64,000 nt of DNA from Sediminispirochaeta smaragdinae DSM 11293. GTDB taxonomy: Bacteria; Spirochaetota; Spirochaetia; DSM-16054; Sediminispirochaetaceae. The notes under the pieces are model-generated. The model did not search any database, was not told the origin of the DNA, and saw nothing but the letters and a program-made list of their open reading frames with translations. Both the position numbers and the translations under genes were made by a program. Numbering within the stretch: the first letter of the stretch is position 1; every line of letters begins with the position of its first letter. The DNA lies in assembly GCF_000143985.1 (NCBI RefSeq), contig NC_014364.1:1984001-2048000 (forward strand), written 5' to 3'. Of this stretch, positions 28,040 to 32,550 are shown one piece after another.

Positions 28040-29218
28040 ATGAAGCATGTAAAACGATTAGGTATTCTGGCAGTTATCCTACTTTTGGTGTTTGCATTTT
28101 CTTCCTGCTCGAATAGTAAAAGCGAGGAGGGGACAGCCTCCATTTCGGATGGGAAAAGTTGGGAGGAAACTTCAGGATTTCATGACAAACTAAGTGTGGA
28201 AGAACTTTACGAAAAAGCCAAAGAAGAAAAAACCGTTACGATCTATTCTATGTCCAGCCGACTAAACGACGTTAAAGAGAGCTTTGAAGCGCAATATCCG
28301 GGGGTTGAAGTCGTCGTCTACGATATGAGAAATTCCGAAATCCTGGAAAAGTTCCAAAGAGAATACAATGCCGGTATCCATACTGCAGACGTGCTTTTTA
28401 TAAAGGACACCGACGGGGCTGTTTATAATGAGTTCGTTAAGATGGGACTTTTGAAAGAGTATATTCCCCAAAATATGATGAAAAGCGCTCTTCCCGAGTA
28501 CCAAAAAGGCGCCTATGTTCCTTACTTTGAGATGAAGCAAATTTTTTACAATTCGGAAGTGTACGATTCTTGCCCCATTGATAATTGGTGGGATCTGACA
28601 CGTCCTGAATATAACGGTAAGATTATTCTGAGGAGTCCAATAGAAAATTCCGAAATCATGGGGCTGTTTATTGCCTTTGTAAAGAATAGTGATGATATGG
28701 CTTCTGCTTATGAAAAAGAGTTTGGTGAAAAGCTGGTTTTAAACGGAACGGAACATGCCGGTTATGAATTTTTAAAACGTCTTATCAATAATGATTTGAT
28801 TATCATGACGTCAGATACCGATATCACTGAGGCTGTCGGGGCTCCTGGACAAAGTGATCCTCCTTTCGGGATTGCAACCTCCAGCAAGATGCGTAAAGCA
28901 GGTGATGATCTGCTGATTAATGTTGCCAATGATTTGTTGCCTCGTTTGGGCGTGCTTGATCCTGCATATCTCTATATTACCGATCAATCGGAACATGTGA
29001 ATGCCGCAAAGCTTCTACTTCGTTGGATAGGGGGTGAGGCCGACGGAACGGGTGAGGGATTTAAACCCTTTCATGTCAGAGGTTCCTGGCCTTCACGTAC
29101 GGATGTTGCTCCTATCGACACACCTCCCCTGAATTCCCTGAACCTATGGCCCTTGGATCTTAACTATAACTACATGATCCTTGATGATATGCGAAATTTC
29201 TGGCTTACCTTGCAATAA
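28040..29218 (+). CDS. ABC importer substrate-binding lipoprotein (system C)
   Basis: A 392-residue lipoprotein with signal peptide and lipobox (FAFSSC). The mature part reads KTVTIYSMSSRLNDVKESFE, then HTADVLFIKDTDGAVYNEF, which is the Fe3+-type/AfuA-like solute-binding fold. No adjacent tyrosine pair is present where ferric-binding proteins carry their ligands. It is longer than the other two binding proteins, with about 45 extra residues after the lipobox. AAAGGAG precedes the ATG. Confidence 0.88.
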   Translation: MKHVKRLGILAVILLLVFAFSSCSNSKSEEGTASISDGKSWEETSGFHDKLSVEELYEKAKEEKTVTIYSMSSRLNDVKESFEAQYPGVEVVVYDMRNSEILEKFQREYNAGIHTADVLFIKDTDGAVYNEFVKMGLLKEYIPQNMMKSALPEYQKGAYVPYFEMKQIFYNSEVYDSCPIDNWWDLTRPEYNGKIILRSPIENSEIMGLFIAFVKNSDDMASAYEKEFGEKLVLNGTEHAGYEFLKRLINNDLIIMTSDTDITEAVGAPGQSDPPFGIATSSKMRKAGDDLLINVANDLLPRLGVLDPAYLYITDQSEHVNAAKLLLRWIGGEADGTGEGFKPFHVRGSWPSRTDVAPIDTPPLNSLNLWPLDLNYNYMILDDMRNFWLTLQ

Positions 29219-29230
29219 TTCTTTTCGCTT

Positions 29231-29266
29231 CGCAACCGGGATGTACATAAGGCATCTCCGGTTGCG
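29231..29266 (+). terminator. Hairpin after the system C binding-protein gene
   Basis: A 9-bp outer stem (CGCAACCGG with CCGGTTGCG) and an inner GATG/CATC pairing, starting 12 bp after the stop codon. No T-run. The position mirrors the hairpins after the other three binding-protein genes in the window. Confidence 0.55.
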
Positions 29267-29284
29267 TGCTCCAAGGACAAAAAA

Positions 29285-30157
29285 ATGCTATACGATATAA
29301 CAATGATCGGTCATGTCTGCAAAGACACTGTATTTGATGGGGGAGTTCGCTCCGAAAGTCTGGGTGGGGCGGTCTACTTCTCTTCTGCCGCCGCGCTGCG
29401 CTCGGGAAAGCATGTTCATGTTATTACAAAGGCTGCAGAACAAGATGATCTCTTGCTTGATGAGATGAGACAAAATGGGATAGCGGTCACAAGGCAGGAT
29501 TCGCCTCAAACAACCTGTATGGCGCTGCATTATGATTCGGTTGATCGTGAGCGACGTGAGATTCTTTTGGCTGCTCAGGCATCGTCGTTTTCTATTGCCT
29601 CCTTTCCGCCTGTCGAAAGCCGAATTTTTCACTTGGCAGGATTGGTAAGAGGAGAGATTCCTGAAGATTTTATCCCCCACTTGGCTCAAAAGGGTGATCT
29701 TGCCGTGGATGTTCAGGGGTTTATCCGCTGCAATGAAGGAGAAAGGCTCCTATTCAAACCCTGGGAAAACGCTGATGACTTGCTTCCTTTTATTAGATTT
29801 TTAAAAACGGATGCTGCCGAGGCGGAAATTCTCACAGGAGAGAAGGATCGAGAGAAGGCTGCTATCTTGTTGAACAGAAAAGGGGCGAAAGAGGTCCTCA
29901 TCACGCATAACAGTGAGGCCCTTTTATGCGTTGATGGTAAGATCTATACGGCTCCATTTACTCCCTCTAATTTATCCGGCCGTACAGGGCGGGGAGACAC
30001 CACTTTTGCCGCTTATCTTGCAAGACGTGTGGAAGATGCACACCCGGCCGAGGCTCTGCGGTATGCCGCTGCGCTCTGCTCTATTAAGATGGAGCATCCC
30101 GGTCCCTTTGAGGGAAGTATCAGTGAAGTATATGCGCGGATGAAAGCAATGACATAA
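29285..30157 (+). CDS. PfkB-family carbohydrate/polyol kinase (system C)
   Basis: A 290-residue paralogue of the kinase at 21503-22396; by eye about half the residues match, including IFHLAGL, RGEIP, IPHLA, GAKE and the catalytic block NLSGRTGRGDTTFAAY. The same substitutions (GG motif followed by YFSS, and GRGD in place of GAGD) occur in both, so they belong to one subfamily and probably act on related substrates. Last gene of the operon before two hairpin/T-run terminators. Confidence 0.85.
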   Translation: MLYDITMIGHVCKDTVFDGGVRSESLGGAVYFSSAAALRSGKHVHVITKAAEQDDLLLDEMRQNGIAVTRQDSPQTTCMALHYDSVDRERREILLAAQASSFSIASFPPVESRIFHLAGLVRGEIPEDFIPHLAQKGDLAVDVQGFIRCNEGERLLFKPWENADDLLPFIRFLKTDAAEAEILTGEKDREKAAILLNRKGAKEVLITHNSEALLCVDGKIYTAPFTPSNLSGRTGRGDTTFAAYLARRVEDAHPAEALRYAAALCSIKMEHPGPFEGSISEVYARMKAMT

Positions 30158-30250
30158 TATCTCGAAAAATGATAGAATTTTCCTTAAAAAGAGGTGGAAT
30201 GTATAAAACACCATTGTATTTTTAAATATATAATGGTACACTTTCTCAAC

Positions 30251-30310
30251 GGTTCGTTGAGCCGTATCTTTTTTTTCGGCTGTGCCCCGGTTCCCGCCGG
30301 GGACTTTTTT
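30251..30310 (+). terminator. Tandem terminators after system C
   Basis: A weak stem (CGGTTC/GAGCCG with one G-T pair) is followed by eight T; then a strong stem CCCCGG/CCGGGG (30285-30302) is followed by ACTTTTTT. Together they close the system C operon about 95-150 bp after the kinase gene. Confidence 0.75.
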
Positions 30311-30322
30311 AACGTTGTCTAC

Positions 30323-30465
30323 TGTTCCGAATCCTGGTGATTGAAGGGACACAATTCTTTTCCTCGCAGTCAATTGAAGGCCAAACTATGGGAAAAAGTA
30401 AGCACCGACATAAAAACAAGGATTTTACCGGCAAAAGGGCATGCATACCACCAGGATTCGGAACA
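30323..30465. mobile_element. MITE-like element with 17-bp terminal inverted repeats
   Basis: TGTTCCGAATCCTGGTG (30323-30339) is repeated as its exact reverse complement at 30449-30465. Both ends are flanked by CTAC (30319-30322 and 30466-30469), consistent with a 4-bp target-site duplication. The 143-bp interior has no full transposase. A 28-codon ORF (30388-30474, starting MGKSKHRHKNKD) runs through the right repeat and may be a transposase remnant or nothing. It probably moved with the help of a transposase encoded elsewhere. Confidence 0.65.
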
Positions 30466-30549
30466 CTACATTAAAGTTGTGTAGTGTTTTGAGTCTTGGT
30501 AACTTCTTCACCTAATCTACTGTTTGCAACACTATTTTCAAGAGCTTAC

Positions 30550-30579
30550 TTGACTGTTAAATAAGTGATATGGGATACT
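30550..30579 (+). promoter_or_regulatory. Promoter TTGACT-18-GATACT of the GntR gene
   Basis: TTGACT (30550-30555) and GATACT (30574-30579) are 18 bp apart, about 50 bp before the start codon of the GntR-type gene. Confidence 0.55.
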
Positions 30580-30628
30580 GATTCTCAATACAAAGGACAC
30601 TTTTCGTTTTTTGGAGAGAATAGAGCCA

Positions 30629-31645
30629 ATGCCTCGAGGTAGAACCAAGAAAGTTGTATCTCTCAAAAACAAGCTGATAGAGCGTATTCAGTCGGACTAT
30701 TATAAACCAGGAGACCGATTTCTTTCAAATCGATATATCGAAGAGCGGTTTGGCGTTAGCTATCAGACCGCCTATCGGATTACAAAAGAGTTGGCAGAAG
30801 AGGGGTATCTTACTCTTGTCCCTTCCTCTGGTGCCTTTATTGCAGGTCCTCAAAATAAGCTGAAAGGTGTTTCGCTTTTTTTTCAGTCAAGAGCACAACA
30901 GAAAGGTAGCTTCGGGAATCGTTTGCTAAGGGGAATTGTTCAGGAGCTGAGGCGTGCGGATATTCTTACTCAGACCTTTTATCTTGAACAAGGAGAAAAA
31001 TTGGATATTGATCCAGCTTTCTTTCCTGTCCTGTGGGAAACCCCACAACTTCTTGAGGCTATTACTACACGAAGGCAGTATTGTCTTCTACTGAATGAGC
31101 GTCCAAAACCAGGTATCAGCAGTACCTTTGTAGACAGCATTACTATCGATGATTTTTCGGGAGGAGTTACCGCTGCTGAGTTATTCCTGCAAAAGGGGAC
31201 GATCCACGATCCTGTGATCATAGCAGGCCCCGATCGTGATCTCAGAAGCATTGCTAGAGTCCAGGGCTTTCTCTCCCTTTTCCCTGATGCAAGCGTGTTT
31301 AAAGCAGATAGCTGGTATTTTGAGCCCGGATATATTCAAGCTTCAGTCTTATTTCTCAATCCTGTCGATGCGGTATTTTGTTGTAATGACCGTTTGGCTT
31401 CTGCCGTTGTCAGTTATATTTATGATCACACAAAAAAGCATGTTCCCATTATTGGTTTTGATGATGCACCGATATCGGAGCAGATGAATATTGCGACCAT
31501 AGCAATTCCCTGGGATGATTTTATAAACCTGTCGGTTGATATAATAAAGGGCAGGTTATCAAACACCCTGAATTCTACTATTCATTATGTGCTTGTGACT
31601 CGCCCTATTCATAGAGGCAATCTTATTTCTTATCACATGCCTTGA
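30629..31645 (+). CDS. GntR-type regulator with LacI-like sensor domain
   Basis: About 338 residues from the ATG at 30629, chosen over the TTG at 30611 because GGAGAG lies in front of it. A GntR winged helix (KPGDRFLSNRYIEERFGVSY, then LAEEGYLTLVPSSGAFIAGP) is followed by a periplasmic-binding-protein-like sensor (VDAVFCCNDRLASAVVSYIY, PIIGFDDAPISEQM). It is convergent with the ROK gene and probably controls the sugar cluster at 31633-39239, although I could not find a matching operator pair. Confidence 0.85.
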   Translation: MPRGRTKKVVSLKNKLIERIQSDYYKPGDRFLSNRYIEERFGVSYQTAYRITKELAEEGYLTLVPSSGAFIAGPQNKLKGVSLFFQSRAQQKGSFGNRLLRGIVQELRRADILTQTFYLEQGEKLDIDPAFFPVLWETPQLLEAITTRRQYCLLLNERPKPGISSTFVDSITIDDFSGGVTAAELFLQKGTIHDPVIIAGPDRDLRSIARVQGFLSLFPDASVFKADSWYFEPGYIQASVLFLNPVDAVFCCNDRLASAVVSYIYDHTKKHVPIIGFDDAPISEQMNIATIAIPWDDFINLSVDIIKGRLSNTLNSTIHYVLVTRPIHRGNLISYHMP

Positions 31646-32550
31646 TGGCTATCCTTTGCAAAACAGGATGCGCCTATTGCCCCTGCATAATCTTTCAGAT
31701 TGGGTATGATGAGCGACACTCGTTCGCCGTTAGGTCTCCATTCAAACTGATCGAGGAAATTATGTAATGGTATAAATAAATCCTTACCAGCCTTTGCAAT
31801 TCCCCCGCCGATGATAATTGCTTCTGGATCAAGAATATTGATGAGTGAAGCAATTGCCGCCGCAAGAGCCCTGACTGATTCAAGCCAGATCGAAGTTGCA
31901 TACGGATCATTCTGTCGATAACGCTCGACGAGTATTTTTGTCGAGCTAATGCGTCCTTCTGTTCGTTCGGAAATAGAGTTATCTCCTATATAAGTATCGA
32001 TACTACCGGGAGTACCGCAAATATCGGGGCCTCCTTTGTAATTTACACTGAGGTGCCCAATATGGCCGGCTCTTCCCAACCTCCCTTGAAATAATTTCCC
32101 GTCGAGCATAATCGCTCCACCGACTCCAGTTCCAAGAGTGAGCATGATAACATCTTTTCGTCCTTTTGCAGCACCAAGCTGCACTTCCCCGTAAAGAGCA
32201 GCTTGTGCGTCGTTAAGGACAAAAATTTTCCCGGGAGAATCGAGGTAGACTTCCCAGTCTAAGTTTTCCAAACCAAGGAGACGGCCTGGCATCGCTGTAA
32301 TTCTTTTGTTGTTTGTATCTGCAAGCCCGGGAGATGAAATACCGATCCACGATGGATCACGACCCTGTTCGCTTTTAATTTTGCTTATCCCTTGGCGAAT
32401 ACGCTGTGCCCATATTGGGGCTCCTTGCTGAAGGCTCTCGAAATGATCGTTCGTCTCCCACAGATAGTTTTTCAGGATCACCCGATTTTCCTGCATTACT
32501 ACTGCCTTAATGAGCGTTCCTCCCAAATCAATGCCTATCCCGTAGTTCAT
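31633..32550 (-). CDS. ROK-family sugar kinase or regulator-type protein
   Basis: About 305 residues from the ATG at 32550 (CGGAG 8 bases upstream). The ATP-binding start GIGIDLGGTLIKAVVM and TLGTGVGGAIMLDG are typical of ROK kinases such as glucokinase or N-acetylmannosamine kinase. There is no DNA-binding domain. The zinc-binding cluster, normally C-x-C-G-x2-G-C-x-E, reads ICGTPGSIDTY here, with only one of the cysteines left, although the preceding GHIGH is kept. Last gene of a minus-strand operon with a transaldolase-like and a SIS-domain gene. Overlaps the GntR gene by 13 bases tail to tail. Confidence 0.88.
   Translation of the reverse strand: MNYGIGIDLGGTLIKAVVMQENRVILKNYLWETNDHFESLQQGAPIWAQRIRQGISKIKSEQGRDPSWIGISSPGLADTNNKRITAMPGRLLGLENLDWEVYLDSPGKIFVLNDAQAALYGEVQLGAAKGRKDVIMLTLGTGVGGAIMLDGKLFQGRLGRAGHIGHLSVNYKGGPDICGTPGSIDTYIGDNSISERTEGRISSTKILVERYRQNDPYATSIWLESVRALAAAIASLINILDPEAIIIGGGIAKAGKDLFIPLHNFLDQFEWRPNGERVSLIIPNLKDYAGAIGASCFAKDSHQGM

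Follow-up and report, generated by a model that had tools for sequence, protein, structure and literature searches.

The locus described here raises the question of what a short sequence with long inverted ends is doing between two open reading frames, and from what it was derived. In the window, that is, the whole 64,000-nucleotide stretch of DNA that was analysed, this sequence lies 3′ of the ORF at 29285–30157 and its terminator-like hairpins and 5′ of the ORF at 30611–31645. A sequence-only reading had described it as a 143-bp MITE-like, non-autonomous element that was inserted recently and is marked by a CTAC duplication. The features at the locus are as follows.

30318..30470, no strand assigned: whole MITE, 153 bp (an interior enclosed by two 17-bp inverted repeats, each with 5 bp outside it)
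30323..30339, plus strand: left terminal inverted repeat, 17-bp core, perfect
30449..30465, minus strand: right terminal inverted repeat, 17-bp core, perfect
30309..30317, no strand assigned: left copy of the 9-bp target duplication, TTAACGTTG
30471..30479, no strand assigned: right copy of the 9-bp target duplication, TTAAAGTTG, 8/9 identical to the left copy
30245..30312, plus strand: terminator-like hairpins with T tails, 3′ of the ORF at 29285–30157
30480..30501, plus strand: decayed end of another element, oriented toward the MITE, 5/20 mismatches over 30482–30501

The perfect 17-bp terminal inverted repeats were borne out, with 17 of 17 positions paired, and within the window the 17-mer is found only at the two MITE ends when up to 3 mismatches are allowed (2 matches against a shuffle mean of 0.14, with 1 of 100 shuffles reaching 2). 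CTAC does stand beside both repeats (30319–30322 and 30466–30469), but it is part of the element and not the target duplication. In the catalogued class of 142–144-bp elements, TA adjoins both repeats in 50 of 51 members, whereas the 4-base flanks are identical in only 13 of 51, and thus the constant TA and the adjoining C/G are element sequence. Likewise, the position separating TA from the repeat is occupied by C in 25 of 30 aligned copies at each end and looks inherited with the element.

The true duplication emerged when the left flank of each element was compared with its right flank, and with wrong pairings. Agreement peaks 5 bp outside the repeats, where a 9-bp frame gives a mean of 4.73 matches versus 3.46 expected (z 6.8; reached by 0 of 200 shuffles) and an 11-bp frame, one base wider per side, gives z 7.2. 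Between positions −14 to −6 and +6 to +14, at least 7 of 9 bases match in 19 of the 51 MITEs, compared with 2.5% of wrong pairings (n = 2550); four of the 9-mers are perfect and eight have one mismatch. The 9-mer is weak (6/9 or fewer) in 32 of the 51 MITEs and in 12 of 13 copies of the related insertion sequence (IS) described below, the remaining IS copy being perfect; we put this weakness down to age and exchange between copies. Taken together, the IS copies do not exceed shuffles in agreement, their level being attained by 26 of 200, and the 9-mers of six short forms match at 4 positions at most.

Empty sites lead to the same length. The flanks of seven elements, one of them an IS copy (L078), were joined under each duplication model and aligned to a same-genus genome, G001. 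Under the 9-bp model, L001 and L058 gave gap-free empty sites (110 of 128 and 122 of 129 positions matching, respectively), and L212 and the L078 IS gave sites with a single gap base, i.e., two gap-free and two near-clean sites of seven; the G001 sites of L049, L059, and L067 are rearranged. Models with no duplication or a 2-bp duplication leave 15–20 bases unaligned at these four usable sites (15–16 under the 2-bp model). Together with the flank agreement, these sites establish a target duplication of 9 bp and an element of 153 bp with CTAC internal to it, so that the earlier 143-bp extent holds for the inner portion (30323–30465) and falls short of the full element (30318–30470). The same two lines of evidence rule out a TA duplication with a CTAG-like target.

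Directly behind the right 9-mer, at position 30480, begins the decayed end of a second element, counted with its outer 5 bp; the sequence TAGTGTTTTGAGTCTTGGTA occupies 30482–30501, and the best of the chance matches elsewhere in the window carry 6 mismatches. Accordingly, the MITE and this older element share one 9-mer, as if the MITE had inserted using the target beside its predecessor. A further hairpin at the right end of the MITE, noted previously, is real (pair I2, 81%) and is formed with the decayed end: the AACACTAC/GTAGTGTT hairpin is the right MITE end facing the decayed one, and no regulatory structure need be invoked. A 53-bp relic at 30482–30534 was considered and rejected, since the micro-element pattern occurs at 4 places in loci of the same genome versus 3 for the reversed control and the closing end is not above chance.

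The search of the genome (4,653,970 bp, a single contig) that had been proposed for this element revealed a multicopy family in a free-living spirochaete. Allowing up to 2 mismatches, the 17-bp end was matched 93 + 93 times, compared with 0 + 0 for the reversed pattern. BLAST with the MITE returned 40 matches, of which 35 are full length, at 70–100% identity (40 of 127 candidates scored), and a sequence model built from 30 copies returned 114 rows, including second-strand duplicates and IS ends, which correspond to at least about 64 distinct full-length places (150 of 2392 model candidates scored). About 30 full-length places were found with this model in G001, the sole match among 12 genomes with the transposase; the remaining 11, all of spirochaetes, gave no match. 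The inverted repeats are perfect in 25 of the 51 catalogued elements and carry one mismatch in 10. Coding capacity is lacking, as every frame is interrupted by a stop in some of the 30 aligned copies (the best is open in 15 of 30).

Besides full-length MITEs, the genome holds shorter forms of 35–81 bp and many apparently single ends. Comparison with G001 identifies some single ends as deletion products: the element at L086 is truncated here and whole in G001, and the G001 counterpart of L083 is cut down to one end. Many single ends (among L093–L104, L107, and L108) keep TAS-TGTTCCGAATCCTGGTG-RT almost unchanged with unrelated sequence beyond it, those of L107 and L108 having the variant TGTTACG..., and some of this set are short elements with a decayed partner. 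L338 has three ends with 142-bp spacing (at 2547, 2689, and 2831; one forward and two reverse), resembling a partial tandem duplication of the MITE, and G001 has the same layout. In G001 (L193, 18522 onward), about 1.3 kb of extra sequence extends from the outer end of an orthologous MITE.

A search for a transposase with these ends, also suggested beforehand, led to an IS of 1.22–1.23 kb present in 13 copies in the same genome, whose ends are similar to those of the MITE. Ten copies measure 1,223–1,233 bp and three measure 2,516–2,517 bp; the one long copy checked (L076, 2830–5350) is interrupted by an IS3-family element, and L072 and L075, likewise IS copies, are similar to it in overall length (about 2.5 kb). 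Identity to the reference copy L069 is 96–98% for ten copies and about 77% for two. Further long end pairs of 1124, 1987, and 2353 bp look like chance pairings and were not counted. Thirteen matches of the MITE sequence model itself cover its first ~80 positions, and these prove to be IS ends. The usual IS end is TGTCCGGAATCGTGGTG, typically in the form nSTAS-TGTCCGGAATCGTGGTG, versus TGTTCCGAATCCTGGTG in the MITE, and the end reads ...ATCGTGGTG in the IS versus ...ATCCTGGTG in the MITE; no autonomous copy with the exact MITE end ...ATCCTGGTG was found in the genome. The left half of the MITE resembles the leader of the IS, that is, the IS end preceding its gene: MITE nucleotides 20–85 align with the leader before the start codon at scores of 44–50.5, compared with a shuffle mean of about 25, and 0 of 1000 mononucleotide shuffles reach the score for each of 10 IS copies. 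The likeness of the right interior to the IS is only suggestive, given that 52–440 of 1000 shuffles reach its score.

The two classes also share a flank preference, seen in 101 ends of MITEs and 28 of the long class (3 of the 16 long pairs not being real IS): TA at −3/−2, T at −7/−8, A at −12/−13, and T at −14. Read with the 9-bp duplication, this preference describes a target of about G-TAAnnnTTA-C. The IS is thus the likely parent of the MITE. With a multicopy family, a likely parent, 9-bp duplications, clean empty sites, and no conserved ORF, the description of the window sequence as an inserted, non-autonomous, MITE-like element is well founded, and the opposing picture of a single-copy conserved RNA with no related transposase fails against the copy number, the likely parent, and the evidence of insertion.

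The IS encodes a product of 372 aa in one continuous ORF. This protein has no Pfam match at 0.01, and it scores 29.9 bits against the NCBIfam IS1 model, for which the cut-off is 100; all 15 transposases aligned match NCBIfam transpos_IS1 (E up to 0.01), and 8 match ISL3. Since this transposase group lacks a Pfam match and its NCBIfam matches are sub-threshold, automatic annotation is likely to miss these elements. Residues C7, C12, C42, C45, D124, and D214 are invariant in the 15 sequences, and position 258 is D or E. A structure model (pLDDT 82.8) has an RNase-H-like core, and its residues 115–319 align with retroviral integrases and the DDE transposases TnsB and IstA (Z 11–12.7), the IS1 family being absent among the structures compared. 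Foldseek's own matches to the model are weak, with one at E below 0.001, and the single transposase match to the PDB by sequence (E 0.78) was not useful. A DDE fold is predicted, in which D124, D214, and D/E258 are the inferred catalytic triad. The transposase was matched in 18 of 60 close genomes and, across the phylum, in 7 of 198 (own genome included in both; three of the seven are short and weak), and a plasmid collection contained no relative. In a pattern scan of named genomes, 79 of the best 80 of 82 loci have spirochaete titles and one is from a short Bacteroidetes MAG contig; TA-G-TGTCCC ends are present in G008 as well, with similar ends in some others and different ones in G049 and G029. 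The protein is a remote IS1 relative with a zinc-ribbon/HTH/DDE arrangement, confined almost entirely to spirochaetes among the genomes scanned.

It might be asked whether the MITE is instead moved by some other transposase, with a resemblance to the IS that is ancient or incomplete. The ends of the two differ at a few bases, clear IS homology is confined to the left half of the MITE, and the MITE is missing from the 11 other spirochaete genomes that carry the transposase, all of which would suit such a scenario. Yet the MITE and the IS have the same flank preference, one IS copy has a perfect 9-bp duplication and another a near-clean empty site of 9–10 bp, and DDE_3 and DDE_Tnp_1, the two other transposase families searched, have no match in the genome; we consider a separate transposase highly improbable. 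The IS1-related enzyme is the better candidate.

Taking ORFs as a mechanical proxy for genes, an ORF of at least 150 aa is interrupted by 1 of 57 elements, versus 815 of 1140 random points; under a looser cut of 100 aa, 10 of 57 elements interrupt an ORF. Where the stop side of a gene faces the element, it lies within 25 bp in 29 of 56 cases (547 of 1600 for random non-ORF points), and where the start side does so, in 3 of 38 (509 of 1748). The elements are thus located mostly between genes, often just behind stop codons. Because the target contains TAA on both strands, target preference and selection are indistinguishable here. It is conceivable, although we regard it as rather doubtful, that the G-TAAnnnTTA-C preference of this spirochaete IS1-related lineage steers both the IS and the MITEs behind genes, allowing tens of copies at little harm; if so, a palindromic target with a stop trinucleotide on each strand would let a MITE family spread with little damage to its host, and through the flank preference it can be tested whether target choice by itself suffices to place elements behind stop codons. 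The window copy follows the upstream gene's terminators and probably has no effect on the genes around it; the hairpins at 30245–30312 are host sequence, matched in G001 up to 30311.

The claim of a recent insertion can be upheld in part. The closest relatives of the window copy are 96.5, 95.8, and 95.1% identical to it, and its 9-bp duplication has a single mismatch, but 22 of the 31 placeable short elements are common to G001, so most placeable insertions are older than the split of the two species (flanking divergence about 4–5%). In full, 57 short elements compared with G001 comprise 22 at the same place, 9 with both flanks and a changed site, 6 with one flank, and 20 unplaceable; among the 16 long-class pairs, some of which arise by chance, 1 is shared and 11 are unplaceable. 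G001 is 96% identical to the window upstream, up to 30311, where synteny stops inside the left 9-mer, and what follows the MITE on its right is absent from that place in G001. The empty-site comparison that had been envisaged therefore succeeded for other copies, as given above, and not for the window copy itself. Any present-day activity of the MITE family is putative.

These same observations could be read differently, with the family as a structured RNA or regulatory DNA element (a terminator, an operator, or something riboswitch-like) that has spread and been kept for its function. The 17-bp stem gives a strong fold (z −3.9 and −4.8), the length is 142–144 bp in all 51 members of the main class even though some are only about 64–76% like their nearest relative, many copies lie close behind stop codons, and 22 are kept at the same place in two species. 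In the RNAalifold consensus, however, nothing but the terminal stem survives (1 of its 17 pairs covaries), the pattern that inverted ends would produce, and the interior hairpin of the MITE is lost; two Rfam matches within 29000–32000 are far below their gathering scores. Insertion is evident from the duplications and empty sites, and copies are truncated differently in the two species. Function as the origin and cause of the spread is thus quite unlikely, though a function may have been acquired after insertion.

We conclude that the MITE is very probably an internally deleted, gene-less derivative of the IS1-related IS, moved by a transposase acting in trans. The observed basis for this view consists of the copy number, the ends, the 9-bp duplication with its empty sites, the shared flank preference, and the leader homology, and both the mobilization in trans and the catalytic roles of the transposase are inferred. 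In the proposed mechanism, an internal deletion of the IS would remove the gene and yield the MITE, which transposase supplied in trans would then move around the chromosome. The N-terminal zinc ribbon and HTH are taken to bind the element ends, and the RNase-H-like core, with D124, D214, and D/E258, is taken to perform cutting and strand transfer; the target, AT-rich and approximately palindromic (about G-TAAnnnTTA-C), would be cut with a stagger, leading to duplication of its 9 inner bases. A spirochaete MITE family with a candidate transposase source and a defined 9-bp duplication makes mobilization in trans directly testable.

Several known systems invite comparison. IS630/Tc1-mariner MITEs also have TA beside both inverted repeats, but here the TA is internal, the duplication is 9 bp, and no DDE_3 protein occurs in the genome; with 0 DDE_3 matches and the bases left unaligned by the 2-bp model, this identity was rejected. 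Members of the IS1 family generate target duplications of 8–9 bp in AT-rich targets, their ends differ from those of the parent IS, and their transposase is encoded in two overlapping frames joined by a frameshift. The present IS resembles them in its N-terminal zinc-binding domain, its DDE core with a putative triad, and its 9-bp duplication, seen in the MITEs, in the one perfect IS copy of 13, and at one near-clean site; it differs in its single continuous frame, and its score stays below the curated NCBIfam cut-off. The parent IS may already have a name in ISfinder. IS605/IS200 elements constitute a transposon class different from that of the present family. Stem loops reportedly tied to such elements on Borrelia plasmids are likewise small, transposon-derived structured repeats in a spirochaete (PMC2775950). 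They were the one case near the subject in our literature search, which returned no paper pairing Spirochaeta smaragdinae with a MITE and, among the matches listed, none on the present family, in keeping with the earlier remark that small elements of this kind are little documented in spirochaetes. The closest likeness is to bacterial MITEs such as MITEAba12, which are reported to be short, lack a conserved ORF, have inverted ends and a target duplication, and lie between genes in many copies alongside a related full-length IS in the same genome (PMC6382973). The present family differs from these in that its related IS is of a remote IS1 type and that, among the genomes searched, it is seen only in two of one genus.
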